A stretch of 64,000 nt of DNA, from positions 1 through 64,000 of the forward strand of contig NZ_FXTP01000007.1 of assembly GCF_900182705.1 (NCBI RefSeq), written 5' to 3'. Shown piece after piece: positions 50,400 through 64,000 of the stretch (position 1 is the stretch's first letter; every line of letters begins with the position of its first letter). The position numbers and the translations under genes are program-made. The notes beneath the pieces were generated by a model that saw only the letters and a program-made list of their open reading frames with translations, ran no database searches and was not told the DNA's origin. Source of the DNA: Gracilimonas mengyeensis. Lineage in GTDB: Bacteria > Bacteroidota > Rhodothermia > Balneolales > Balneolaceae.

Positions 50400-51338
50400 A
50401 TGAAAGCCATTAAATGTTTGAAATACGGAGGTTCTGAAAACCTGGTACTGGCAGATGTTGAACAACCAAACCCGAAAAGCAATGAGGTGCTGATAAAAAT
50501 TAAAGCTACCTCAGTCACCACCAGTGATGTACTCATACGAAGATTGGATGAGCCGCTCATTCCAAAATTTATACTTCAAATCATCTTTGGTTTTGGGAAA
50601 CCACGCAACCCCATTTTGGGGATGGTATCATCCGGACAAGTGGTAGCAAAGGGCGAAAAAGTAACCTCCTTTCAGATTGGTGATGAAGTATTTGCCTACG
50701 GTTCTGTTTCGACTACTAATCACCGCTTTGGGTCTTATGCAGAGTATATATGCCTGCCCGAAGACTGGAATATCGCCCTGAAACCGGCCAACATCAGTCA
50801 TAATGAGGCTGCCGCGGCTCCCTATGGCGGCTTACTCGCTATGCATCTATTGAGCAAAACCTCCATTCAGAAAGGCGATGAACTCTTAATCTACGGGGCT
50901 TCAGGCAGTATTGGGACCATGGCAGTGCAATTAGCCAAAATTGCCGGCGCAAACGTAATCGCTGTTTGTAGCGGCAAAAACGTTGACCTGGTCAAATCGC
51001 TGGGCAGTGATCTTGTGATTGATTACACCTTGCAGGGCGCTGAAAAACAGTTATCCACTTATAAATATGTACTGGACGCAGTCGGAAACTCAAAGTCCTC
51101 ACTACTTAAAGAAAAAAGCAAAAAGGCCTTAAATGTAAATGGTATATACATATCCATTGATACCGGTGTACCTAAAACCCTCAGAAGTGCTTTTATACAA
51201 TTGAAAAACTACCTCGCAGCAGGGAAAATCAAACCGGTAATTGACAGAGTCTTCCCATTAGAAAAAATGGCCGAAGCCCACGATTATGTTGAGCTCGGGC
51301 ATAAGCGGGGTAATGTCATCATAAGTATCTCCCTTTGA
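50400..51338 (+). CDS. NAD(P)-dependent quinone oxidoreductase-like MDR, second copy
   Basis: A 312-residue zinc-free MDR like the one at 15806. It has EVLIKIKATSVTTSDVLIRR, the nucleotide site LIYGASGSIGTMAVQLAKIA and AGKIKPVIDRVFPLEKMAEA at the C-terminus. It could reduce quinones or enones. Repeat D with a terminator follows. It probably shares a transcript with the hydrolase. Confidence 0.9.
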   Translation: MKAIKCLKYGGSENLVLADVEQPNPKSNEVLIKIKATSVTTSDVLIRRLDEPLIPKFILQIIFGFGKPRNPILGMVSSGQVVAKGEKVTSFQIGDEVFAYGSVSTTNHRFGSYAEYICLPEDWNIALKPANISHNEAAAAPYGGLLAMHLLSKTSIQKGDELLIYGASGSIGTMAVQLAKIAGANVIAVCSGKNVDLVKSLGSDLVIDYTLQGAEKQLSTYKYVLDAVGNSKSSLLKEKSKKALNVNGIYISIDTGVPKTLRSAFIQLKNYLAAGKIKPVIDRVFPLEKMAEAHDYVELGHKRGNVIISISL

Positions 51339-51357
51339 CCTATCTGACATAAACAAA

Positions 51358-51518
51358 AAGAGGTAATACCTCAAACATACAAGCAACAGAAAGCTTAGCC
51401 TTCTGTGCATTGTTTTAGAAAAGCAACAGCACATGTTTTGCCTTATCCCAATATTCACCTACCGGCAAAAAATCCTCTACATAAAAAAAGCCTGACTCGC
51501 TTGTGCGAATCAGGCTTT
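51358..51518. repeat. Dispersed repeat family D with terminator
   Basis: Third full copy, with GGTAATACCTC in place of the usual start palindrome and a hairpin AAAGCCTGA/TCAGGCTTT at 51487-51518. It ends transcription of the MDR just before the integrated element. Confidence 0.75.
51487..51518. terminator. Terminator hairpin in repeat D
   Basis: Same hairpin as at 36057: AAAGCCTGAcTCGC with GCGAaTCAGGCTTT, preceded by a run of A. Confidence 0.75.
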
Positions 51519-51695
51519 GAGCTCCCCGGGTAGTGGCTTGGAGGGGTTATTTCAGGTTTCAAAGACCGTTACTTACTCACAAAATATCAGTTACTTACAA
51601 AATGTAAGTAGAGAAACTTTCTTCCCCCAATGAGTGACTTTATTCAAGTTTAGTCTTACTATGGTTGTACCAAATTTCAACCTAAACATGACTGG

Positions 51696-52928
51696 ATGTC
51701 AGCAACTTTTCAAATTGTCTTTAGGTCAGATAAACCTAAGAAAAATGGAGAGTGTCCTGTTTATCTCAGGATCACACAAAACCGTAAGGCCAAATTTATG
51801 AGTACCGGGATTTCAGTGGAACCCAAATACTGGAATTCGGACAAAAGAGAAATTCGCAAGTCACACAGAAACGCGAAGACCCTCAATCAAATTTTAAATC
51901 TAAAAAGAACCGAAGCCGAAGATGCATATGCGGAGTTAGCTCGTCATGGCCGGGATAACTCAAAAAATATCAAGCGTAAGATAAAGGCCAAGAAGGATGC
52001 GGACTTCTTTATATATGCCGAAAATGAAATCAGGGGAAAAACAGAGATCGGTAAGCTATCTCAGGTAAGCCAAACCAAAGTGGCTAAATCCCAGATGGAA
52101 GATTATATAGGAGAACCTCTCCTTCCTATTGCTCAGATGGATCATCACTTTCTGGAAGGCTTTCAAAACTATCTGCTCTATCAGAAAAAGAATAAGCCCA
52201 CTACCATAAAGAAAACCTTTCAGCCCATAAAAAGGATTATCAGGCAAGCCCTGCTGGATCATGTTATTCATGTAGATCCGTTTGTATTCTTTAAAAGGGT
52301 GAAAGAGAATGAACCGCCGGAAAAAACCAAACTGACTTTGGAGCAAATTGACCTTTTGAAGTCATTGGACATTAAAAAAGGTTCGTCCAAATGGCACACT
52401 CGGAATGCTTTCCTATTTAGCTTCTACAGTGCCGGTATTCGGTTTGGGGATGTCTGTGAGTTGACTTGGGATAATGTCAAAGGCGGACGACTCATCTATA
52501 ACATGGGCAAGAATGGGAAGAAATTCAGTACCCATCTGAATGACCCTCAAAAAGAGATCCTCTCCCATTACTCCGGTGAAAGAAACCAATTCATCTTTCC
52601 CTTTCTAAAAAATGATGTAAAGTATGATGACCTGGGTGATCTTCGAAGAGACATTCGATCACAAAATGCTTTGTGCAATAAGAACCTATCTAACCTCAGA
52701 GATCTTGCCAACGACAAAATAGAAAAGGAAGAACTCAAACTACCCTATGTGGAGCATATCTCCTTTCACGTTGCCCGACACTCCTTTGCCCAGCATGCGG
52801 TAAATAACGGAGTATCTGTCTATGAACTCAAACAAGTTCTGCGACACGCTAAAATTGAAACCACTGAAAAATACCTTAAATCACTAAATGCTGAGGTCGC
52901 CGATAAAACCATCAGCAAGCTATTTTGA
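51696..52928 (+). CDS. Bacteroidetes-type tyrosine recombinase (integrase)
   Basis: A 410-residue integrase. The N-terminal arm-binding domain (1-95) is the Arm_DNA-bind_5 type, the SAM-like core-binding domain follows (about 105-200), and the catalytic domain is from 212. The R-H-R-H-Y residues are R249, H358, R361, H384 and Y393 (SAGIRFGD, HVARHSF, LRHAKI, KYLKSL). This type moves Bacteroidota conjugative or mobilisable elements. It marks the left end of the inserted region; it is not an integron IntI, as it lacks the IntI patch and has an arm domain. The next gene starts 6 bases after its stop. Confidence 0.92.
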   Translation: MSATFQIVFRSDKPKKNGECPVYLRITQNRKAKFMSTGISVEPKYWNSDKREIRKSHRNAKTLNQILNLKRTEAEDAYAELARHGRDNSKNIKRKIKAKKDADFFIYAENEIRGKTEIGKLSQVSQTKVAKSQMEDYIGEPLLPIAQMDHHFLEGFQNYLLYQKKNKPTTIKKTFQPIKRIIRQALLDHVIHVDPFVFFKRVKENEPPEKTKLTLEQIDLLKSLDIKKGSSKWHTRNAFLFSFYSAGIRFGDVCELTWDNVKGGRLIYNMGKNGKKFSTHLNDPQKEILSHYSGERNQFIFPFLKNDVKYDDLGDLRRDIRSQNALCNKNLSNLRDLANDKIEKEELKLPYVEHISFHVARHSFAQHAVNNGVSVYELKQVLRHAKIETTEKYLKSLNAEVADKTISKLF

Positions 52929-52933
52929 CTTTA

Positions 52934-53680
52934 ATGAATACAAGACAACACTTTGACGCCATTAAACATGGCAATATGACGAAGCTAGATATCCACAATT
53001 TTGTTGATAATGCTACTGATAACTTCAATCCTGTTAAACTGAAAATGCTGCTCCAGGATCTGGATCACTATATCACGAGATTCTACTTCGACATCAGAAT
53101 AAGACCTTCAGAAATGATCTGGCCTGTTTTTGAGAAAATAAATGAAGATGCAGGACATGAAATTTATACAAACGTTTTAAAAAACATCTGCGGTTTGCCC
53201 GGAGCCGAAGAGGAAACTTTTCAAGATGCTGCTTTAGCCTATGTTCAGCAATATGGTTATGAGGCGGTCATAGAATTTACCGATACCATCAAAAACTTCG
53301 AAAAGGTTGCTGATGAGATGTACGGCAATGAGTTTACCAATCAGTATCTAAACGAAATTTCACTTACAAAATTCAGAACATATCTGAATGATCAGTTGGT
53401 TGAAGCTGAAGAAGAACAGCTGATTGAAAACCAACCGATTGGTCGTCAACCCGTCTTTGATTTGCAGGACACCTTGAACTGGTTTCACGAACTTAAAGGA
53501 AATCCGGATTACCAGCATGCCAATGGTTCACCTCACTACAGTAACATTGATTTGGAGCTGATTTCCCGCCACAAAAGAAAATCTGGACAAAAACCATCCA
53601 TTGACACGATAAAAGTACATCGTAGAAAACTGGGTTTAATGCATACTGGAACACTATCTCGAGGGGTGAAAAAGGGTTAA
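52934..53680 (+). CDS. Unknown mobile-element protein
   Basis: A 248-residue protein starting MNTRQHFDAIKHGNMTKLDI, with a helical acidic composition and a C-terminal segment DLELISRHKRKSGQKPSIDT. No family is recognised. It follows the integrase by 5 bp and is presumably expressed with it. A TTG start at 52925 would overlap the integrase stop but adds only three residues. Confidence 0.65.
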   Translation: MNTRQHFDAIKHGNMTKLDIHNFVDNATDNFNPVKLKMLLQDLDHYITRFYFDIRIRPSEMIWPVFEKINEDAGHEIYTNVLKNICGLPGAEEETFQDAALAYVQQYGYEAVIEFTDTIKNFEKVADEMYGNEFTNQYLNEISLTKFRTYLNDQLVEAEEEQLIENQPIGRQPVFDLQDTLNWFHELKGNPDYQHANGSPHYSNIDLELISRHKRKSGQKPSIDTIKVHRRKLGLMHTGTLSRGVKKG

Positions 53681-53765
53681 TAACCCTTTTTCATCTGTTT
53701 CAGGTTCGCAAAAGTGCGGAAGTTGTGTGCAGTTCAAACAACAACCACAACAAAAGCACACAACT

Positions 53766-54056
53766 ATGCACGCTTATATACCAACCAAAGACGACCTCCA
53801 ACAACTCATTGAAGCCGCAGTAGAACGCACTATGCAAGAGTGCCTCCCTGATGCCATCCGCAAAGCTACCCGAAAGAAATGGCTGACTACAGAAGAAACC
53901 ATGAAGCTTCTGAAATGTTCACGTCGTCATATTCAATATCTAAGAGATACCGAACAGCTTCCCTATGTCCAAAATGGACGAACCATCCGGTATGATATCG
54001 ACGAGATCGAGCAGTTATTGAAAACCCACAAAGTCCAACGAAGAGTTAATTCTTAG
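53766..54056 (+). CDS. Excisionase-like HTH protein (HTH_17)
   Basis: A 96-residue DNA-binding protein. From about 48 it has KKWLTTEETMKLLKCSRRHI, LRDTEQLPYVQNGRTIRYDI and DEIEQLL, the MerR-like excisionase fold. It probably acts as recombination directionality factor or controls the element. The start is taken at the ATG at 53766 (MHAYIPTKDD); the longer GTG-started frame has low-complexity Q-rich residues. Confidence 0.85.
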   Translation: MHAYIPTKDDLQQLIEAAVERTMQECLPDAIRKATRKKWLTTEETMKLLKCSRRHIQYLRDTEQLPYVQNGRTIRYDIDEIEQLLKTHKVQRRVNS

Positions 54057-54068
54057 TCACTGCGTCAA

Positions 54069-54096
54069 AAGAGCCTGCTCCACAATGGAGTGGGCT
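54069..54096 (+). terminator. Strong hairpin after HTH gene
   Basis: GAGCCTGCTCCA pairs with TGGAGTGGGCTC at 10 of 12 positions around CAA. It lacks a long T-run but may end the HTH transcript. It also covers an in-frame ATG at 54085, which argues for the later start of the next gene. Confidence 0.5.
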
Positions 54097-54129
54097 CGAT
54101 TATTTCAAAAATTTCAACAATTGCCTCTA

Positions 54130-55551
54130 ATGAAAAATACCATACTATCAATACCAAAAAACTTCGATCTAAACACCGCTGAACGACCTAGCGATATCAC
54201 TATTAACCAACATCAGGCAAATTTAGTCAGCCCGGAAGACCTCCGACTGCCCGCGGAACTTCTACATGAACTGCCACCCTTAGTCACCGACTATCTCGAC
54301 TACGCCTCACCTCTTTCTGATGCCCCGGATGAATTTCTACTGACTCCTTTCCTGGCGATTGCAGGATCACTTATTGGAAATAACCGGTTTGTCGAACTTG
54401 GAGGCATAACCGTCTATCCGGTTATTTGGACGGTTATTTTTGCTGGTTCTTCCACCCTGCGAAAATCCACTTCGGTCAGCATCGCTAAGAAGCCGTTTAA
54501 AGGAGTCTTGAAAAAATGGAAGGAGGAACATGAAATCAACGTCATGAATTGGCAAGAAGAAAAAGAATATGCCGAGGATCACAATCAACCCTTTGAAGTA
54601 CCGTCTCCTGCTAAACGAACTTTATACTGCTCCGATGGTTTCTCAGATCTCACATTCTGGGAAGACCTGAAGAATAACGGAAGCCTGACCTCCACTCCCA
54701 CCGAATTTACCGCCCTTTGGAATGAGTTAACCAGACCTCGAAATAGTTTAAAAGATTTGGCTCTTTCCATCTTTGATGCGGAAGATTCCATTCGAAGAAA
54801 TACAAAGAATGCCGGGGATATAGAGCTTCAAAACCCCATTTGGTGCATTGTTGGAGCAACTACCCTTTCCAACTTTCAGAAAACCTTGACGGCCATGGAG
54901 CGATCCTCCGGTTTATTGCAACGAATTCTGCCGATTTGCATGAAAGAACGGACCAAACCTTTCAAAGCATTAACGGAATTGGTCAAGCCGGATGAAAAAC
55001 TTTACAACGAAATATGTACTCTAATTGAAGCCCTATCTGCTCTTCCAAGGCGTCCGGTTTCACTAACCATGGAAGCCGCTGAACTGTACACCAACTGGAG
55101 TCATCAGCAGCAAGAGCAAGCGTATGAGCTTGAACAACACATCCCCGATATCGGCGGCTATGTCTCCCGCCTCGATGTCTATACCATCAAGTTTGCATTG
55201 ATCTTCCAAACCCTGGACAATCATAATTATGCCATTAGCGGGAAGAACATGAAAGCAGCTATTCTGTTGTGTCAGTGGCTCTTCAAGCATATCATCTTCA
55301 TGCTTCAAAAGAACTACATCTTTAACCGAACCTATTCTGACCGATTGAAAATTCGGGAGCTTTTATCAAAGCAAGGCGGAAAGATGAGCCGAACGGATCT
55401 GATGAATTATTCCAACTTTGATAAAGAACAGCTCGATAAGGCGTTGGATAATGAAGTAGAAGCCGGATTTATTGAAAGATTGGTCATTGATACCGGTGGC
55501 AGACCCCGCTACGAGTACAAGTTGAAGCCTGAAGGCAACTTAGTTACTTAA
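54130..55551 (+). CDS. DUF3987 family replication-associated protein
   Basis: A 473-residue protein of the DUF3987 family, in which a degenerate P-loop segment (AGSSTLRKSTS) and LYCSDGFSDLTFWEDLKNNG resemble primase/helicase proteins. C-terminal winged-helix-like residues (GGKMSRTDLMNYSNFDKEQL) are present. It belongs to the replication or mobilisation part of many Bacteroidota elements. The start at 54130 (MKNTILSIPKNFDL) is preferred to 54085, which lies in a hairpin. Confidence 0.85.
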   Translation: MKNTILSIPKNFDLNTAERPSDITINQHQANLVSPEDLRLPAELLHELPPLVTDYLDYASPLSDAPDEFLLTPFLAIAGSLIGNNRFVELGGITVYPVIWTVIFAGSSTLRKSTSVSIAKKPFKGVLKKWKEEHEINVMNWQEEKEYAEDHNQPFEVPSPAKRTLYCSDGFSDLTFWEDLKNNGSLTSTPTEFTALWNELTRPRNSLKDLALSIFDAEDSIRRNTKNAGDIELQNPIWCIVGATTLSNFQKTLTAMERSSGLLQRILPICMKERTKPFKALTELVKPDEKLYNEICTLIEALSALPRRPVSLTMEAAELYTNWSHQQQEQAYELEQHIPDIGGYVSRLDVYTIKFALIFQTLDNHNYAISGKNMKAAILLCQWLFKHIIFMLQKNYIFNRTYSDRLKIRELLSKQGGKMSRTDLMNYSNFDKEQLDKALDNEVEAGFIERLVIDTGGRPRYEYKLKPEGNLVT

Positions 55552-55609
55552 ATACTTAGAAAGTCCCAGCCCTAAACCACTTATTAAGAAACTAAGTAAT
55601 TAAGTAGCT

Positions 55610-56650
55610 ATGAATGAGCTAAACAATTCCATCAGTATTTTTAAAAACTTTCAGTCTGAACCAAAGACCATTTCCCTTATACAGTGGCTCCATGCCTGTA
55701 AGCATGGATGCAGGTATTCCAAACAGGTCCTTCGGTATCGTGAGACAAAGCAGGATTTTTTAAAGAAATCCCTGCCTTTGGTAACTGTCGGAGCCGTTTG
55801 TGAGGGTGGTCGCAAAATGGAACAGGTGATTCACAAAACCGGATGGATTGCTTTAGATATAGACGGTAAAGACAATCCACACCTCTCCAATGCCGAACAC
55901 CTGCGGGATGAAGTCGCCAACATTCGCAATGTGGCATTCTCCGGGCTAAGCGTATCGGGAAATGGAGTTTGGGCCCTTATCAAAATTGAAAAGCCAGATC
56001 AACAGGCAGAATACTTTCATGAAATTCAGCAGGACTTTCTGGAATTATTTGGAATAAAACTGGATATCTCAAAAGGAAGAAACCCCAATGATGCCCGGTT
56101 TTATAGCTATGATCCTGACGCCATCATAAAAGAATCCTTCATACCCTATCGAAAACTTTCTAAAGAACTACCCAATTCCCCTGTTTATTTAAATGAATTT
56201 GATGATAGTAGAAATTATCAGAAAGATTTCTGTGGCAATGGTACCAGATATGGAGAAGTAGCCCTTCAGAGTGAACTAAAACTCTTAGAACAATCATCCG
56301 ATGGTAACCGAAACAACCAATTATTTAAAATTTCTGCCCAATTGGCCTCACTGGTTGCCTCAAATTGTTTAAATGAATTCGAAGTTCGCAATCTTTTAGA
56401 ACATTCAGCCCGATTCATTGGCTTGTCTGACAAGGAAATTCATCAAACCATTGAAAGCGGATTCAAGAAAGGGCTGCAAAATCCCAGAATTTTAAAAGTA
56501 TCACATGATTCCTTATCCCACAACACCGCAATTTCTTTAAAAGAAAAGCCTCAGATCAATTCTGCACTTTACGGAATGAATCCCTGGACAGGTGAAGTCT
56601 TTGATGAGCGTGGTTATCCTAAAAATTGGGATAACGTGCTACCCTTTTAA
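55610..56650 (+). CDS. VirE N-terminal/BT4734-like primase-type protein
   Basis: A 346-residue protein with the VirE_N/BT4734-like domain in the first 200 residues: HKTGWIALDIDGKDNPHLSN, VAFSGLSVSGNGVWALIKIE and LDISKGRNPNDARFYSYDPD. The C-terminal part (LKLLEQSSDGNRNNQLFKIS) is the helical region often joined to it. Related to archaeo-eukaryotic-primase folds, it probably helps replicate the element with the DUF3987 protein. It begins 58 bp after that gene. Confidence 0.86.
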   Translation: MNELNNSISIFKNFQSEPKTISLIQWLHACKHGCRYSKQVLRYRETKQDFLKKSLPLVTVGAVCEGGRKMEQVIHKTGWIALDIDGKDNPHLSNAEHLRDEVANIRNVAFSGLSVSGNGVWALIKIEKPDQQAEYFHEIQQDFLELFGIKLDISKGRNPNDARFYSYDPDAIIKESFIPYRKLSKELPNSPVYLNEFDDSRNYQKDFCGNGTRYGEVALQSELKLLEQSSDGNRNNQLFKISAQLASLVASNCLNEFEVRNLLEHSARFIGLSDKEIHQTIESGFKKGLQNPRILKVSHDSLSHNTAISLKEKPQINSALYGMNPWTGEVFDERGYPKNWDNVLPF

Positions 56651-57125: not shown

Positions 57126-57905
57126 TCAAAATGAGTATTGCTTCACCAAATCTTCAAAGCGAACCACTTTTTTTCTATCCGTTGCTTTGAATAAAAATGG
57201 TTCCACGTCTTTGGCCATTTCTTCCATATCCAGTTGCTGGCATTTTTCCAGAACGACTTCTTTTAAGGTCTCGGCATCAGATACCGAAATTTTATCTTCA
57301 AGATAATCGTAGTCGGGCTGAATGTTACGCCCCATCAGAAAAACCATATCAAAGAAGTCTCTGCCTTTATTCCTTTCGCGGTTGACAATAGCATATAACT
57401 TTTGAGCCATCAGTAACGGTAATGGAGTGGTCAAAATAGTGGTAAATACCTCGAACCGGTTTAGTACAAACCGTTCAGGCTCATAGTCAAAATGCTGTGG
57501 CTCGGTATCTAATTGAATAAGAATCTTTTCTTCTTTATGGCCCGATAATCCTTTTTCAAAAAGTAATCCCGGAAACTTGATGTGACAGTGCCAGGCTCCT
57601 TTCATCACGGTTTTCATTTCGGTTTCAAATCCTTCTCTGGTGAGTTCCCTTTCAATGAGCTTGGCTACTTTTTCAAAGTCATCTTCACTCAATGAAATAT
57701 TATCAAAATCGAGATCTTCGGAAAAGCGCTGATTCCCATGTACAATTCGAAGACATGTCCCTCCAAGAAAGCATAGTCCTTTGGCATACGGACTTTCAAA
57801 AATGATCTCTAAAATTTTGTATTGCAGGTACTCCCTCAATAAAAATTTAGGATAGCGGTGTAACTGATCCGGGTAAAAGGATTGGATTTCGTCAAGCGTT
57901 AGCAT
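57126..57905 (-). CDS. AbiEii/AbiGii-family nucleotidyltransferase toxin
   Basis: A 259-residue toxin of the AbiEii family. The nucleotidyltransferase signature is GGTCLRIVHGNQRFSEDLDF, with the two catalytic acids in SEDLDFD. Such toxins of type IV systems transfer nucleotides, and tRNA 3' ends are targets for some relatives. The C-terminus has the typical VNRERNKGRDFFDMVFLM helix. It overlaps the antitoxin gene by 14 bp and is co-expressed with it. Abortive infection against phages is a known role for the family. Confidence 0.92.
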   Translation of the reverse strand: MLTLDEIQSFYPDQLHRYPKFLLREYLQYKILEIIFESPYAKGLCFLGGTCLRIVHGNQRFSEDLDFDNISLSEDDFEKVAKLIERELTREGFETEMKTVMKGAWHCHIKFPGLLFEKGLSGHKEEKILIQLDTEPQHFDYEPERFVLNRFEVFTTILTTPLPLLMAQKLYAIVNRERNKGRDFFDMVFLMGRNIQPDYDYLEDKISVSDAETLKEVVLEKCQQLDMEEMAKDVEPFLFKATDRKKVVRFEDLVKQYSF

Positions 57906-58521
57906 TCAAATAGTTTTTTAAGTGATTAATTCGGGTATGTAGTGCATTGGACCCAATATGATTGACATAGGCATCCAGCTTATCCATGGATATGCGGGTT
58001 ACAATTTCTGCTGCATTCCATCGCAAACTTTCAAATTCTGCCGGACTCTCTATTTCACTGTGCAGGTACAGATAGTCAATGATTGTTTTTTCAGGTCCGG
58101 CAATGGTATAGTGGTGGTCATCCCACTGCTGAAGGTGATAGCCAAAAAATAGATCCGGTTTCAGGTTGCGGTATGAGAAATTACCTATCGGTGTATCAAA
58201 GGTATTTGTCTTTACCGTAGTGCATGAAGTGATTTGAAAGACTCCTTCCGGTATAAACCCATAAACGGACAAGGCTGATTCCAACGACACATAGGAAGGG
58301 CCATAGATGGCATTTGCACAATAGAACAGATAAGCTTCATCAACCTTGTAATCTGTGAACCGATAATATCGATTTCGTAATTTTTGGATGTAGCCTTTCT
58401 CCTGCCACTCTACCAGCCTGCGATTGTCGAAATTTGGGAAATGCTTCTCGATCTCACGGACTGAAAAGACCGGAAACCTCTGCATACTTTCTTTGAACTC
58501 AAGATAAGTCATATTTTTCAT
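57892..58521 (-). CDS. AbiEi-family antitoxin
   Basis: A 209-residue antitoxin. The N-terminal winged helix reads FPVFSVREIEKHFPNFDNRR with LVEWQEKGYIQKLRNRYYRF. The C-terminal part (SYVSLESALSVYGFIPEG, TIIDYLYLHSEIESPAEFES) is the AbiEi fold. It represses its own promoter in studied systems. A TTGTTA/TAACAA inverted repeat 10 bases upstream of the start is the likely operator. Confidence 0.88.
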   Translation of the reverse strand: MKNMTYLEFKESMQRFPVFSVREIEKHFPNFDNRRLVEWQEKGYIQKLRNRYYRFTDYKVDEAYLFYCANAIYGPSYVSLESALSVYGFIPEGVFQITSCTTVKTNTFDTPIGNFSYRNLKPDLFFGYHLQQWDDHHYTIAGPEKTIIDYLYLHSEIESPAEFESLRWNAAEIVTRISMDKLDAYVNHIGSNALHTRINHLKNYLNANA

Positions 58522-58546: not shown

Positions 58547-58799
58547 TTTTTAGAAATAAAATCTCTCTTTAAATCTACGAGATCAAGTTCCACTTGGGAA
58601 TAGCCCCGGAAAAGCGCCTCAAAGTCCGAGGTATGCTTCTCGGGAGAGGATTTTGAAGGCAAAGTCGTTGGATGGGGTTTTTTAACTCAAAAATAATACC
58701 CTAATAGTTACATCCAGCAATAAAAGTTGAAAGATTTGACTATTTATAATATCCGATTAACTTTTACGCATTGTCAATTCAATTAACTACACTAAAGTT

Positions 58800-60086
58800 A
58801 TGTCATCGGTTATCGGGATTCTTAATAAACAAGCTGTAGCGTTAGCTGCTGATAGTGCCGTTACTATTTCCAGGAGAGATAACAGAAAGATTTTTAATAC
58901 GGCCAATAAAATTTTTACTCTGTCAAAATATCACCCGGTTGGGGTAATGGTTTACAATTCCGCTTCCTTTATGGGAACCCCTTGGGAAATTATCATTAAA
59001 ATGTACCGGGATCAGCTAAAAAATAAATCTTTCAAGACTGTTAAAGCCTATCAAGAAGATTTCTTCAAATACTTGCGTTCAAATAATTTTTTCAGTGACA
59101 GAGAAGAGGAAGACGGTGAGTTGACTGATTTTTTTATTTTCTGGATGAACGTGTTAGTTGAGGAAGTATTGAAAGACCACAGAAATCTACTTTTAAATCC
59201 AACTGAGGAAAACAAAGAAAAATTTCTAAACCGCTTCGCGGAAATGGTCACTAAGTTTACTAAAAATGTGAATGGGCGGGAATTATGCACTGACTTCAAA
59301 AACTATACTCAACGCTCATTTAGTGCCTATACCAAAGATATTTTTGATCAATGTTTACAATGGATTTTTGACCCGTTAGAGCTTGAACTAAAAGATAGCC
59401 TAAAATCGAAACTGCGGAAATTTCTCTTTTATCAGACAACTACCAAAGACTTTTATCGCAATTATACCGGTTTGATTTTTGTAGGGTATGGCGACAAAGA
59501 AATTTACCCGCAATTGATTCCTGTCCATGTATCATTTGTACTCGATGAAAAACTGAGAGCTTTTGTTGACGTTGATAATCAGGCCCAAATTTCCTCAAAA
59601 AATAGTGCCGCTATTCGGCCATTTGCACAGACTGATGTGATTAATACTGTACTTTCAGGGATTGACCCAGAGTTGGATTCTTTTTACACAGACAATTTCA
59701 TGAAATTTCTACAAAAATATAATCGGCTCGTAGCAAAGACGATAGAGGATCAGTCTCAGGAACTTGCAGATGCCATTCTTGGTTTAAATTTAGAGAAAGT
59801 AGTCAAAGAATATATTGATGAAAACTTCAAGATCCGGCGGGAGAATTACATAAACCCTTTGATGAGTGCCGTTGGAAGCCTCTCAAAGGAAGACCTCGCA
59901 GAAATGGCGGAAAGTTTAATTTACTTAACGTATCTTAAACGCAGAATTACTTTTAAAGAAGAAAGTGTGGGCGGTCCGGTAGATGTAGCCCTTATCACCA
60001 AAGGTGATGGATTTATCTGGATAAAACGTAAACACTATTTTGATCCGAAACTTAATCACCACTTTTTCAAAAACTATCTGGAATGA
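58800..60086 (+). CDS. Proteasome/HslV-fold (Ntn hydrolase-like) protein of unknown role
   Basis: A 428-residue protein whose first 60 residues look like a proteasome beta-subunit. After removal of Met1, Ser2 would be the N-terminal nucleophile in place of Thr1. D18 in ALAADSAVT matches Asp17, and K37 in ANKIF matches Lys33. VGVMVYNSASFMGTPWEI follows as the usual next strands. The rest (about 90-428) is helical and has no known domain, with HKHYFDPKLN... written here as RKHYFDPKLNHHFFKN at the end. It is much longer than HslV or Anbu. The next gene overlaps its stop by 4 bp. Proteolytic activity is inferred, not shown. Confidence 0.72.
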   Translation: MSSVIGILNKQAVALAADSAVTISRRDNRKIFNTANKIFTLSKYHPVGVMVYNSASFMGTPWEIIIKMYRDQLKNKSFKTVKAYQEDFFKYLRSNNFFSDREEEDGELTDFFIFWMNVLVEEVLKDHRNLLLNPTEENKEKFLNRFAEMVTKFTKNVNGRELCTDFKNYTQRSFSAYTKDIFDQCLQWIFDPLELELKDSLKSKLRKFLFYQTTTKDFYRNYTGLIFVGYGDKEIYPQLIPVHVSFVLDEKLRAFVDVDNQAQISSKNSAAIRPFAQTDVINTVLSGIDPELDSFYTDNFMKFLQKYNRLVAKTIEDQSQELADAILGLNLEKVVKEYIDENFKIRRENYINPLMSAVGSLSKEDLAEMAESLIYLTYLKRRITFKEESVGGPVDVALITKGDGFIWIKRKHYFDPKLNHHFFKNYLE

Positions 60087-60280
60087 CCGAGCAACCAACA
60101 GATAACACAAGCCGTCGCTTTGATCCTCATGTAGCCGCTGACTTGTGGCGGAAAAAAGAGCAAGAACAAGAGGAACGTAAAGTGATGAATCCTGAAAAAC
60201 TTGCTGAAGAAGTTTCTGACCGGCTGATTAGAATTATTGAAAAGGAGATGAAACGACAGCAGCCTAAAAAAACAGGGTAA
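60083..60280 (+). CDS. 65-residue partner of the Ntn-fold protein
   Basis: A small, highly charged protein (MTEQPTDNTSRRFDPHVAAD, then a coiled KKEQEQEERK and RLIRIIEKEMKRQQPKK). Its ATG overlaps the stop of the preceding gene (ATGA), so the two are made together. It could be a regulator, adaptor or substrate of the Ntn-fold protein. No family is recognised. Confidence 0.7.
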   Translation: MTEQPTDNTSRRFDPHVAADLWRKKEQEQEERKVMNPEKLAEEVSDRLIRIIEKEMKRQQPKKTG

Positions 60281-60289
60281 GCCCCCTAC

Positions 60290-60415
60290 CTAATCCTTCT
60301 TAGGAGGATTTGTCTTTGTAACATCCGGACGCGGAGGCTTTGTTTTGCTGTTGTGCCTAACTCTTTTCTTTTCCGGATACTTTGTAGTGCTTTTCTTTTT
60401 CTTTGAATCGCTCAT
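60290..60415 (-). CDS. 41-residue Lys/Pro-rich peptide
   Basis: A tiny basic peptide: MSDSKKKKSTTKYPEKKRVR followed by HNSKTKPPRPDVTKTNPPKKD. The KTKPPRP block is shared with the peptide encoded just upstream. Its ATG overlaps the stop of that gene (ATGA), and it is the last gene of a three-gene unit. It is convergent with the 65-residue protein gene, with 9 bases between the stops. Function unknown. Confidence 0.6.
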   Translation of the reverse strand: MSDSKKKKSTTKYPEKKRVRHNSKTKPPRPDVTKTNPPKKD

Positions 60416-60510
60416 TTTTTAGGTGGCTTTTTACCTTGACTTGCTGATGGTCTAGGTGGTTTGGTTTTTCCTTTCTTTACTGGTACCGTTTGTTGTGTTT
60501 TTTTAGCCAT
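60412..60510 (-). CDS. 32-residue Lys/Pro-rich peptide
   Basis: A tiny basic peptide: MAKKTQQTVPVKKGKTKPPR followed by PSASQGKKPPKK. It starts 3 bases after the stop of the membrane-protein gene and overlaps the next small gene by 4 bp. The KTKPPRP block shared with that gene makes coding chance unlikely. It may be a nucleic-acid-binding or effector peptide; no family is recognised. Confidence 0.6.
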   Translation of the reverse strand: MAKKTQQTVPVKKGKTKPPRPSASQGKKPPKK

Positions 60511-60513
60511 GAT

Positions 60514-60903
60514 CTATAGATTAATGGTGAAGAATAGTACAAAAACCGTTATTGCTGCAATTAAAAACCCAAATGACCAGTTATTCAATCGGTTCGTCCT
60601 TTCATCTTGCTCATCACTTTCGGTGTGTTTTCCTTGTAACTCAAGAGTTCCCGCTTTAATGGCTGATTTATGGGACAATAGGATAAGCAGTAATGATATG
60701 ACAAATCCCGCCCACGAAGCTATCATAAGAAACTTCCAACCTGCTTCATCCAAATCAACTAAGTCTTTTACGAAGCCCAACGTCAAAATCAATCCCCCGC
60801 TGGATAAGTACACAATTAGTTTGTCAAACTGTTCTTGGGCATAATCCCGCATCTTTCGGACAGTTGCTCTGTATTCTTCTAATTCTTTTTCTTGGTCTGT
60901 CAA
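60514..60903 (-). CDS. Small three-helix membrane protein
   Basis: A 129-residue protein. A basic/acidic N-terminal helix (TDQEKELEEYRATVRKMRDY) leads to transmembrane helices at about 29-47, 58-77 and 109-128 (LIVYLSSGGLILTLGFVKDL; FLMIASWAGFVISLLLILLS; WSFGFLIAAITVFVLFFTIN). The arrangement resembles membrane effectors of small defence operons, but no family is recognised. First gene of the operon with the two Lys/Pro-rich peptides. Confidence 0.7.
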   Translation of the reverse strand: MTDQEKELEEYRATVRKMRDYAQEQFDKLIVYLSSGGLILTLGFVKDLVDLDEAGWKFLMIASWAGFVISLLLILLSHKSAIKAGTLELQGKHTESDEQDERTNRLNNWSFGFLIAAITVFVLFFTINL

Positions 60904-61139
60904 ACTTTTACTGTGTTTCTATTTACAATTCCTCCGGCTCCAGTAACTGAATCAATCGCTATATGTACGATCTATAAGAATGTACTTAATTATCCAAAGG
61001 GAATTGAGATTCTTTTTCCACAAATTTAGAACAGGGTTAACCACAGAAGTATCTTTTTGATAAAAAACATAAACAACTAGTGAAGATCTTAGAGTGATTA
61101 GCTTATAACTATATTAGATAATTCTTTTAAGCTAATGCA

Positions 61140-61919
61140 CTATTTCAATTTTAACTGCTTGTAGTATTCCTTAACAATGGGAATAAAATTTTCAAAATCG
61201 GTTTTACTTTCAATAGATGTAGTTACCCATTTTCCATCTTGATTGTAAGTACCCAGCCTGAAATTTTGTCTTCTTGGATCTATATAGGCAAGAACATTTC
61301 CTTCATATTTAATTGAGATAGAATATTTGAGTGGTTCTGGTTTAATTTTTTCTTTGTCCCAACTTTTAACCTGTTCTACAACCCATTTTGCCAATTTTCT
61401 GCTTTCAGAATCTTTAATGTAATTGTATCTCTCATCTAGGGTATATGATTGAATTCTTTCAGGAAGACTGGGAGCATTTACCTCATTATAAATTAATATG
61501 ATGTCATCGCTTCCCTCGAATTGAATACTTTGAAATGATATTAATGTTATTGGTATATCAATCCATTTTATTCTATTCAAAAGTTGAATGGAAAAACTTG
61601 GTGCAATTAACATTAATCTTAATTCCTGCGATGGATCTATATCAAGCTTACTATATGCTCTGGCATACCCTTCTATATTTCGATTCACATAATCATAATA
61701 GTCAATCGCTTGATCAAGCATTGAATCATTTTCAGTCACTTTCAGTTCGGCTACTACAAGTGATTTCCCTGCGTCTCTAAATAAAACATCTAATGGGCCC
61801 CTTGTTGTAAACGACTGGTGATCTACAAACTCTAGTTCATCTTCAATTAAATGTGGAGCCTTTCTTACAAGATCTTCCAACTTCGTCTCACTTATATCAA
61901 CTGTTTTATAATTCTTCAT
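61140..61919 (-). CDS. NucS/DUF91-like PD-(D/E)xK endonuclease
   Basis: A 259-residue protein with a nuclease core at the start. LEDLVRKAPHLIEDELEFVD is followed by RGPLDVLF with D44, and VVAELKV with E58 and K60, then Q70 in LDQAIDYYDY. These fit the D...ExK nuclease motif of NucS/DUF91 proteins. The C-terminal part (160-259) has no known domain. It is 42 bp downstream of the restriction-methylase gene on the same strand, so it may be the cutting or accessory component of that system. Confidence 0.78.
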   Translation of the reverse strand: MKNYKTVDISETKLEDLVRKAPHLIEDELEFVDHQSFTTRGPLDVLFRDAGKSLVVAELKVTENDSMLDQAIDYYDYVNRNIEGYARAYSKLDIDPSQELRLMLIAPSFSIQLLNRIKWIDIPITLISFQSIQFEGSDDIILIYNEVNAPSLPERIQSYTLDERYNYIKDSESRKLAKWVVEQVKSWDKEKIKPEPLKYSISIKYEGNVLAYIDPRRQNFRLGTYNQDGKWVTTSIESKTDFENFIPIVKEYYKQLKLK

Positions 61920-61961: not shown

Positions 61962-64000
61962 TCATCCCACACTCCCCTCCACAATCCCAATCTCCTCTTC
62001 ACTCAAGCCATACAGCTCATACACCAGTTGGTCAATTTCGGCTTCCAGTTTGCTGGTGTCGGTTTCGGGGTTTTCTTTTTTGGCCGCGAGGATTTTACTG
62101 ACTAAATCACTCAACTCCTCTTGAGATTTAGAAACTTTGATAGGTAAAGTTTTAAATTCACCTACTCTTATTTTCGGGAATAAATCGTCAAACTCATTTC
62201 TTTCATACCTGAAAAACCAAACCATCAATTTAGATCCAAGTATTCCTAAGACATATTTTGGATCAACCTCTTTCTTAATTGGTTTTGCTATGTATAAGCT
62301 TCTATCAATTATTATATCATCCTCCAACAAAGTACAAATAAACCGATCTCCTAAAATCTCTCTCATCACTATCCTTTGACCAGTAAAAAATTTAGGATCT
62401 CTTGGGGCAGCAAGCCATTCACCGTAACTTATAAAGTGTTTTTTGTCCCACTTGGTAACAAACCAATCAATGTGTTTACCTCTAATTTCAGGTACAAAAG
62501 TTTCATCTTTTGCGTGATCGGAATGATACACTTTGTTCTTTATTACATGTTGGGACTGCCCTGTGTATTTATCATAAGGATTTACCCCTCTTGTAATATC
62601 AAACAATTCTTCAATATTTTTGCTCTCACTCCTAATTTTATCTAAAATCTTTTGAGCAAATTCGCTTACTAAGACATTAAATATCAGACCTTCGTTATTT
62701 GCAAATCTTAAAGAGTTTATTTCATGATTAATAGTTACCTCCTCTTCTTTGAAGTGCCAAACTTTTAAGGACTTCTCTTCTTTGGACTTTTTTCCTAAGA
62801 ATATTAAGGTATCTACTGTAGCCTCTTCAAAAGCGTTTGAGATATTGGGATTAACTGAGATAAGGGGAATATTATCTAATACGAATTTTCTACATTTTGT
62901 CATGGTCATGTTTTTCAACCATGAATTAGGTGTAATAAAACTTATATATGCATTCTGTTTAATTAAGTTTGCTCCTCTTTCAATGAAGAAAACATATAGA
63001 TCTAATTGATATTCAGCAGTCTCAAAATTTGAACGTAAGTAATCTTTTTGCTCTGGCACGTTTGTTCCTGATAAATAAGGCGGATTCCCAATCACCACAT
63101 CAAAGCCAATATATTTGCCCTCTTCATCCAGCACTTCCGGGAACTCGAAGCGCCATTCAAAGGCCTGGTTATAAAACGCCCCGCTTTCTTCATCGGCTTT
63201 CTGCTCCTCCAGTTTTTCTACTTTCTTTTTCTGCTTTTTAATGTCCTTTTTGGTGAATTTCTGCTCGCCAAACAGGTCGGCATTTTGCATTAGCTCCAGC
63301 CTGCCCCGTTCTTTGGAGAGCTTTTTGTTAATGGGACGGATATTGGTCAGCGTGGTGGTGTATTCTTCCTTAATCTCACCAATGAGGTTCTGAAGTCGCT
63401 TTTTTTCGGAACGGTCACCCGTGTGTTTGTAATTGCGCACGGCTTCCTTATAGTCCTCCAGCGAATGATCGCTATCCTTGAACACCGAAGACAGATCACT
63501 GTCCAACTCAAACCGGCTGACCAGCGAATTACCCTGCTTAATGTTAATATCAATATTGGGCAATACTTCCAGTTCCAAATACTCGCTTCCTGGCGTGTAA
63601 AAGGCTCGCTTCAGCAGTTCGATCCACAGCCGCAGCCGGCATATTTTCACTGAATTGGAATTGATATCTACCCCAAACAAACAGTTCTCAATCAGGAATC
63701 TCTTTTCGTGAAAAAGCGCCTGCTGTATGCGCTGTCGCTCGGAGGCTATTTTTCGAGAAGCCAGTGTTTGTCCCTGCCAGGTGTGAGACACATCATACTC
63801 AAACAATTCATCATCCCCGTAACTGACAATTAACTCATCATTTTCGACCATCACGTTCAGGTCCCGAAACGCTTTGCCGTCCACATCACATAAAATCCCC
63901 AAATCGGATTTTATGGCCAGCAGCTCATTCAAACACGACACCAAAAAATGACCGGAACCCACAGCCGGATCACAAATAGTAATGGAATTAACGATCTCAT
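61962..64000 (-). CDS. Eco57I/TaqI-type adenine methylase-restriction protein, partial
   Basis: About 680 residues are present; the N-terminus lies beyond the right edge. The visible start includes the SAM-binding motif I CDPAVGSGHFLVS, and NPPY in VVIGNPPYLSGTNVPEQKDY is the adenine methyltransferase motif IV. Between them is a lysine-rich helical insert. From about 480 on, a target-recognition domain (TaqI_C-like, DITRGVNPYDKYTGQ, WFVTKWDKKHFI) follows. It is a type IIG or PglX-like enzyme. With the nuclease gene downstream it forms a restriction-modification module, probably cargo of the integrated element. Confidence 0.88.
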   Translation of the reverse strand, partial: EIVNSITICDPAVGSGHFLVSCLNELLAIKSDLGILCDVDGKAFRDLNVMVENDELIVSYGDDELFEYDVSHTWQGQTLASRKIASERQRIQQALFHEKRFLIENCLFGVDINSNSVKICRLRLWIELLKRAFYTPGSEYLELEVLPNIDINIKQGNSLVSRFELDSDLSSVFKDSDHSLEDYKEAVRNYKHTGDRSEKKRLQNLIGEIKEEYTTTLTNIRPINKKLSKERGRLELMQNADLFGEQKFTKKDIKKQKKKVEKLEEQKADEESGAFYNQAFEWRFEFPEVLDEEGKYIGFDVVIGNPPYLSGTNVPEQKDYLRSNFETAEYQLDLYVFFIERGANLIKQNAYISFITPNSWLKNMTMTKCRKFVLDNIPLISVNPNISNAFEEATVDTLIFLGKKSKEEKSLKVWHFKEEEVTINHEINSLRFANNEGLIFNVLVSEFAQKILDKIRSESKNIEELFDITRGVNPYDKYTGQSQHVIKNKVYHSDHAKDETFVPEIRGKHIDWFVTKWDKKHFISYGEWLAAPRDPKFFTGQRIVMREILGDRFICTLLEDDIIIDRSLYIAKPIKKEVDPKYVLGILGSKLMVWFFRYERNEFDDLFPKIRVGEFKTLPIKVSKSQEELSDLVSKILAAKKENPETDTSKLEAEIDQLVYELYGLSEEEIGIVEGSVG

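Follow-up and report, generated by a model that had tools for sequence, protein, structure and literature searches.

A predicted proteasome-fold hydrolase and its tiny partner protein form a mobile gene pair with a possible role in phage exclusion

Introduction

The DNA analysed here, called the window throughout, is a stretch of 64,000 nucleotides from Gracilimonas mengyeensis. It carries a gene pair whose first member encodes a 428-residue protein that is well supported, on the strength of its structural model, as a proteasome-fold (Ntn) hydrolase, and whose second member encodes a tiny protein of 65 residues. Relatives of this pair are carried by phages and phage satellites and are present in defence islands, which suggests that it may serve as an as yet uncharacterised weapon where phages and bacteria are in conflict. 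Our main reading, to which we give a probability of about 0.5, is that of a mobile two-gene module, composed of an N-terminal-nucleophile hydrolase and a small regulator, that would act in phage exclusion; it is the genomic context that points to defence.

Organisation of the locus

The two genes share four bases (ATGA), which confirms the overlapping 65-residue ORF of the first-pass annotation at 60083-60280, and the proteins are probably made from one transcript. The same annotation had placed the pair between a toxin-antitoxin system and restriction genes, and this is what family matches show, with AbiEi and AbiEii flanking it on one side and, on the opposite side, a type IIG restriction-methylase together with a NucS-like protein. 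The features of the locus are as follows (+, forward strand; -, reverse strand).

51696-52928 (+): tyrosine integrase, by family match, on the left side of the presumed island
57126-57905 (-): neighbouring AbiEii-type toxin, by family matches
57892-58521 (-): neighbouring AbiEi-type antitoxin, by family matches
58585-60935 (no strand): cassette, 94% identical to that of a second genus (L005/L118) by DNA comparison
58800-60086 (+): gene for the predicted proteasome-fold (Ntn) hydrolase, PHROG 5990 / PMI-4-like, 428 aa, ATG start
58803-58805 (+): codon of Ser2, the predicted N-terminal nucleophile once Met is removed, placed at Thr1 by the model
58851-58853 (+): codon of Asp18 (proteasome Asp17), invariant in the alignments
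58908-58910 (+): codon of Lys37 (proteasome Lys33), invariant in the alignments
59082-59444 (+): first helical insertion, about residues 95-215, after H1/H2, from the order of elements in the AlphaFold2 model and not from coordinates
59748-59879 (+): second helical insertion, about residues 317-360, between H3 and H4, placed likewise by order of elements and not by coordinates
59958-59987 (+): C-terminal strand motif EESVGGPVDV (ETVGGPVDV in the family), matching SGGMIDV of the Thermoplasma beta subunit
60083-60280 (+): partner gene, 65 aa, ATG start, with stop/start overlap with the enzyme gene
60191-60259 (+): C-terminal helix of the partner, about residues 37-59, the better conserved portion of the window-type partner; a helix is predicted in the L006 partner
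60514-60903 (-): 129-aa ORF within the shared cassette, a probable membrane protein judging from its hydrophobic stretches
61140-61919 (-): neighbouring protein with a NucS-C-like endonuclease domain, by family matches
61962-64000 (-): neighbouring type IIG restriction-methylase-like gene, whose frame runs on to about 65650 on the contig

The enzyme gene lies inside a stretch of about 14 kb that starts with the tyrosine integrase, followed by HTH_17, DUF3987 and BT4734-like genes; these genes, at 51696-56650, represent the presumed mobile end of an island whose other end would be the restriction gene, at about 65.65 kb of the contig. A comparison of 50901-51800 with 64501-67500 gave 12-base repeats only, which are treated as chance and not as a clear attachment repeat; the window contains no tRNA.

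Fold of the enzyme

An AlphaFold2 model of the window enzyme, built from 46 sequences (the window protein and those of related loci), has a mean pLDDT of 90.5 and a pTM of 0.86. The best PDB matches found for it by Foldseek are 20S proteasome beta subunits (E 2e-4, target-normalised TM-score about 0.54), and in the best row of a VIA-align comparison with yeast beta5, 186 residues superpose with an rmsd of 3.3 A (Z 16.7), residue 2 of the model falling on residue 1 of beta5, the Thr1 position. The model, the structural search and the superposition thus agree on the proteasome fold that had been proposed from the first 40 residues. At the sequence level, the profile of an alignment of 18 sequences, in which the relatives are 27-56% identical to the window protein, has the Thermoplasma beta subunit as its top PDB sequence (E 0.0034), with an N-terminal segment and the C-terminal SGGMIDVAVI segment matched co-linearly.

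According to the order of elements in the model, the proteasome fold is broken up by the two helical insertions listed above, and the close spacing of strands 21-25, 28-32 and 38-40 indicates that an S3/S4 insertion is absent. The first-pass annotation had described about 350 residues without a known domain; in the model this stretch is the rest of the proteasome fold together with its two insertions. Searches against Pfam, NCBIfam and PADLOC returned no usable domain for the enzyme. The Pfam Proteasome family matched below threshold (E 0.064) and was set aside, as were UFL1_C, dUTPase_2 and JetB, whose weak matches are at chance level; the best PADLOC family (E about 0.01) is also at chance level, and no curated defence family was matched. 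In a library of predicted viral structures the enzyme model found distant matches only.

Active site

Ser2, Asp18 and Lys37 occur where the first-pass annotation had located them, and the alignments and the start codon before residue 2 make this more than a chance resemblance. Asp18 and Lys37 are invariant in three MAFFT alignments, which comprise 18, 45 and 46 sequences and overlap in content, and in the profile alignment Lys37 stands on the Lys that precedes LF in the Thermoplasma beta subunit. Among 64 representatives (clusters at 80% identity), 62 have Thr as residue 2, and the other two, the window copy and L006, have Ser. The expected conservation of the triad therefore holds for the Asp and the Lys, and residue 2 is always Thr or Ser, but the Ser from which the claim had started is the minority form and Thr the family norm. 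A start codon lies immediately before residue 2 in all 64 representatives (54 ATG, 7 TTG and 3 GTG), and a propeptide is therefore absent; together with the placement of residue 2 in the superposition, this supports the N-terminal position of the putative nucleophile.

Note that in the count over 64 representatives the start was anchored on the Asp motif, which fixes Asp18, so that the independent evidence for Asp18 and Lys37 is that of the MAFFT alignments. The count leaves out the duplicates L001, L002, L108, L109 and L110, the truncated L027, and also L112 and L113, which apparently belong to other proteasome-like families. These two distant proteins (L112 1468-2265, L113 856-1593), probably members of other groups of the proteasome-like superfamily, likewise start with Met-Ser. 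The Ser169 of the proteasome is not kept, its place being taken by Val390 in the 18-sequence profile alignment, where Glu388, a conserved residue, is close to the position at which Asp166 would fall. In an E. coli prophage (L115 12787-14190) the RefSeq start is set 33 codons upstream of the conserved MTAEI start, thus masking the N-terminal nucleophile.

Relation to known families

The protein family is already known. The window enzyme matches PHROG 5990 over its full length (residues 1-426 on 1-427, E 3.3e-110), and the library entry says of this family only 'unknown function'. Moreover, 22 uncharacterised proteasome-like groups were described by Fuchs, Alva and Lupas in 2021 (PMC8665760). 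In the parts of that paper drawn on here, the group PMI-4 (Proteasome homolog with Multiple Insertions 4) is characterised by insertions after H1/H2 and between H3/H4, by Thr/Ser1-Asp17-Lys33 and by the lack of a propeptide; it comprises 501 sequences at 90% identity with a broad distribution, and is the only PMI group for which Table 1 gives phage members. An S3/S4 insertion is, according to the same parts, a feature of PMI-5/-6. The window family shares with PMI-4 the proteasome core, the triad, both insertion sites, the missing propeptide, the lack of an S3/S4 insertion and the occurrence in phages, and the window enzyme likely belongs to this group, as judged from architecture. It differs in having a partner gene, whereas no informative gene context and no partner gene are reported for PMI-4 in these parts of the paper, and in carrying Ser where most relatives have Thr.

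With 20S beta subunits, HslV and Anbu the window enzyme has the fold and the position of the catalytic triad in common, but it is about twice as long, contains two helical insertions and is accompanied by a tiny partner. An AAA+ unfoldase gene was not seen among the window neighbours scanned, and ring assembly of the enzyme is doubtful. The archaeal ligase Connectase resembles it in combining the proteasome fold with helical insertions and, in the consulted portion of the source, works outside a ring (PMC8665760); its insertion is situated at S3/S4, in contrast to the sites after H1/H2 and between H3/H4 in the window enzyme.

Neither a proteasome-fold anti-phage system nor the tiny partner and the mobile and defence context of this family was found in the papers that searches of the open-licence PMC literature returned. 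The novelty claimed for the locus has therefore to be divided: the family was described in 2021, if membership by architecture is accepted and as far as the text of that source used here extends, and is also present as PHROG 5990, whereas the conserved partner and the mobile and defence setting have no counterpart in the papers returned.

The tiny partner

A 40-80-codon ORF starting at most 40 nt after the enzyme stop is found in 49 of 56 representatives, the window included, compared with 41 of 273 control genes taken from the same loci (other ORFs with 200 codons or more); the size criterion was chosen after inspection of the loci, and the representatives (80% identity clusters) share ancestry and are not independent lineages, so that the Fisher p-value of this comparison serves as a rough indication. 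The 56 are the 64 representatives minus six with too little flank and two that are broken. Among the seven misses, four (L019, L080, L102 and L056) have an ORF of 34-37 codons, mutually similar by eye, and L111 has one of 71 codons at a distance of 57 nt; L022 and L043 have no such ORF within 100 nt, and their enzymes have longer C-termini.

In 18 of 22 close pairs of partner genes, taken after exclusion of pairs that differ at more than 35% of sites, dN is lower than dS (for example 0.10 versus 0.80, 0.12 versus 1.68 and 0.17 versus 0.80), with the changes in close pairs being mostly at third positions. The remaining four pairs comprise two with dS beyond computation, one with a single nonsynonymous change and one that is identical. 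Because dN stays below dS in these 18 pairs, the partner is, on this sequence evidence, most probably a translated protein under purifying selection. A chance ORF, considered as an explanation, is ruled out by the same ratios and by the excess over control genes. The tiny coupled gene noticed in the window thus proves to be a regular companion of the enzyme in homologous loci.

The partner diverges quickly and comes in several types, which follow clades and by eye look unrelated between them. The window type ends in a C-terminal amphipathic helix, the types 'LREWQKKFNPS' and 'LKQ.Y.R.QPKS..DFF' are found in gammaproteobacterial-looking prophages, and a further type is the 34-37-residue 'NAYK' one (all by eye). 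No partner match above chance was obtained in the four libraries Pfam, NCBIfam, PADLOC and PHROG. The partner is annotated as a hypothetical protein in L011, L012, L014, L020 and L025, and has no annotation in the two E. coli prophages examined downstream of the enzyme gene (L114 and L115), the L115 partner having 34 codons. When the in-frame pair of L006 was modelled by AlphaFold2 as a read-through protein, the partner helix was predicted with a pLDDT of about 70-76, and its N-terminal half, mostly below 50, would be mostly disordered; the joined model gave no confident placement of the partner on the enzyme.

Carriage on phages, satellites, prophages and plasmids

The enzyme gene is carried by 13 phage records. 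Seven of these are Streptococcus satellite phages. In the four of them that were examined it follows a putative transcription regulator gene; three of the four end with the enzyme gene, or with the partner behind it, and in satellite Javan421 seven genes come after it, including a RelBE-type pair. A Providencia phage has it close to the lysis genes, one Stenotrophomonas phage examined has it next to holin/lysozyme but on the other strand, and in Streptococcus phage Javan85 it is found at the end, behind the lysin. The Porphyromonas phage (L011 7647-10028), in which the enzyme gene is found inside the head-tail structural cluster and co-oriented with the virion genes, is unlike the cargo positions seen elsewhere.

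Relatives are encoded at 186 candidate places in the IMG/VR virus collection, 80 of which were retained. In a PHROG scan of neighbours, where one protein can match several families, the repressor families phrog_4 and phrog_2328 each match 9 of 53 upstream neighbours and Q antiterminator families match 8 of 47 downstream neighbours (among the 25 commonest families listed). The scan covered 53 of 59 upstream and 47 of 55 downstream neighbours; L010 represented the identical L007, and most of the loci on plasmids and chromosomes were omitted. By the calls of a simple longest-ORF caller, which also supplied the neighbours, the enzyme gene is opposite in strand to both neighbours in 16 of the 53 loci where both were called. 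In E. coli, 22 of 5426 genomes contain a DNA match, over 14-16% of the query. In two of the three E. coli regions examined, Q and the lysis genes flank the enzyme gene, which is on the opposite strand; in the third it lies directly behind a helix-turn-helix regulator gene, whose product would be a repressor judging from its position. Sites between Q and the lysis genes or behind the repressor are typical for lysogenic-conversion and exclusion genes. The genomic position is also similar in kind to the hotspots of anti-phage cargo in prophages and satellites, as these appear in the part of the source used here (Rousset et al., 2022, PMC9122126).

Ten plasmid records contain the enzyme gene, five of them typed as conjugative, and three of the ten copies are broken or truncated. 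A multiubiquitin-ThiF operon is situated a few genes away from the enzyme in four Rhizobium/Mesorhizobium plasmids only, in two arrangements (L017 5267-11423, L018 6001-12210, L022 2733-7437 and L023 6001-12203), and a Clp-type protease is found in the Rhizobium loci; given this narrow occurrence, a functional link to the enzyme, which was considered, is not proposed. Truncated or frame-broken enzyme copies (L008, L023, L024 and L027) suggest turnover of the gene.

Transfer between genera and chromosomal surroundings

Window positions 58585-60935 (2.35 kb) are 94% identical to a Rhodohalobacter contig, of which 60 kb compared with the whole window gave, outside this cassette, two matches of about 100 bases only. 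The two cassette copies encode enzymes that are 99% identical in amino acids (dN 0.004 and dS 0.055 for the gene) and partners that are 100% identical in DNA, and both include the 129-aa ORF on the other strand (window 60514-60903, L118 1170-1559), for which there was no family match above chance. Since the cassette matches while the flanks share almost nothing, the shared unit consists of the enzyme, the partner and the 129-aa ORF.

The occurrence of the enzyme is patchy. Among close relatives it is found in 3 of 95 genomes besides that of G. mengyeensis (4 of 96 with it). In a sample of the phylum, four further full-length copies occur among 393 genomes, three of them the same as among the close relatives, and with the own genome the sample has 7 of 394, of which five are full-length. 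In the phylum of G444, two of 397 other genomes hold a near full-length copy, and one of these copies is interrupted by an internal stop; counted with G444, there are 6 of 398, three of them near full-length and one of these with the internal stop.

Defence genes neighbour several chromosomal copies. Besides the window, this is the case in Rhodohalobacter halophilus, where a 1412-aa NACHT/STAND-like protein (PDC-S60 match), a Schlafen-type helicase, a PIN protein and an HNH endonuclease are encoded nearby, in G423, where three genes of a type I restriction system adjoin the enzyme gene, and in L006, with a 231-aa piece of a type IIG enzyme nearby. The large Rhodohalobacter protein (L117 15354-19592), near the same cassette, has a PDC-S60-like part at its N-terminus. 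The chromosomal copies of G005 and G035, however, adjoin smpB; among the ten neighbours scanned at these places, coiled-coil hits at chance level were the only defence matches. The proposed defence neighbours are thus seen at the former four places and not at the two smpB copies. In two related genomes (L120 7431-9414 and L121 7860-10014) the enzyme gene lies directly beside smpB and the next gene on the far side differs, so that the smpB side may be an integration hot spot.

Proposed function and alternative explanations

According to our main reading, Ser2 (Thr in nearly all relatives) would, after Met removal, serve as the nucleophile, activated by Asp18 and Lys37; the predicted catalytic activity would be proteolysis rather than another acyl-transfer chemistry. 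Ring stacking is probably blocked or changed by the two helical insertions, and the enzyme would therefore work as a monomer or small oligomer. It would act unassisted by an AAA+ unfoldase and on a small set of specific substrates, the specificity being set by the insertions, and the tiny partner most likely would hold it inactive or set its target. On infection by a (competing) phage, the enzyme would be released or redirected, a phage or host protein would be cleaved, and phage production would be blocked. The effector protease of phage defence that the first-pass annotation had suggested gains from the positions on prophages, satellites and defence islands and from the transfer of the cassette, and loses from the two chromosomal copies without defence neighbours.

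The repressor-family or Q antiterminator genes that adjoin the enzyme in many prophages, and the annotated transcription regulator adjoining it in the four Streptococcus satellites, would also be expected if the enzyme cleaved a repressor, an antirepressor or a helper-phage factor, and so controlled lysogeny or induction of the element that carries it rather than host defence. This self-management appears rather unlikely, because the enzyme also occurs on plasmids and in chromosomal islands that contain defence genes, and is part of a transferred cassette complete in itself. Somewhat less credit still is due to a toxin-antitoxin-like addiction pair, in which the hydrolase would be toxic, the tiny protein its inhibitor, and addiction the cause of persistence on mobile elements. 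A tiny partner that diverges fast and in most loci immediately follows the enzyme gene, the mobile carriers and the decayed copies would suit such a pair, but the partner lies downstream of the enzyme gene, and the explanation overlaps largely with phage exclusion, many defence systems being toxin-antitoxin-like.

The partner's presence in most loci would likewise fit an acyl transferase whose N-terminal Ser/Thr ligates or processes the tiny protein or another peptide tag, and Connectase, in the portion of the source used here, is a proteasome-fold monomer with helical insertions that acts as a ligase (PMC8665760); yet no recognition motif shared by the partners was seen, and their types look unrelated between clades by eye, which makes this improbable. 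The head-tail position in the Porphyromonas phage is what a virion or phage-growth accessory would occupy, for example one for structural-protein processing that was kept by chance in degraded prophages and islands. Orientation against both neighbours in the 16 loci mentioned, and occurrence on satellites, plasmids and non-phage islands, render this very improbable indeed.

Set against these alternatives, a module acting in phage exclusion remains our preferred reading, and there is a realistic chance that the pair constitutes a new defence system. Its fullest form is more tentative, falling a little short of even odds: a new type of anti-phage system with the first proteasome-like effector, an N-terminal-nucleophile protease that is triggered by phage and restrained or aimed by a tiny dedicated partner, the two genes having moved as one cassette into prophages, satellites, plasmids and defence islands in several phyla. 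Proteasome homologs that carry large insertions entered the literature in 2021, with no functional clue in the parts of the source drawn on here (PMC8665760). A partner that is conserved and a setting that is repeatedly mobile, and in part linked to defence, now provide a direct handle, as the pair can be tested as a unit. If the pair does block phages, proteasome-type proteolysis would join the immune effectors of bacteria.
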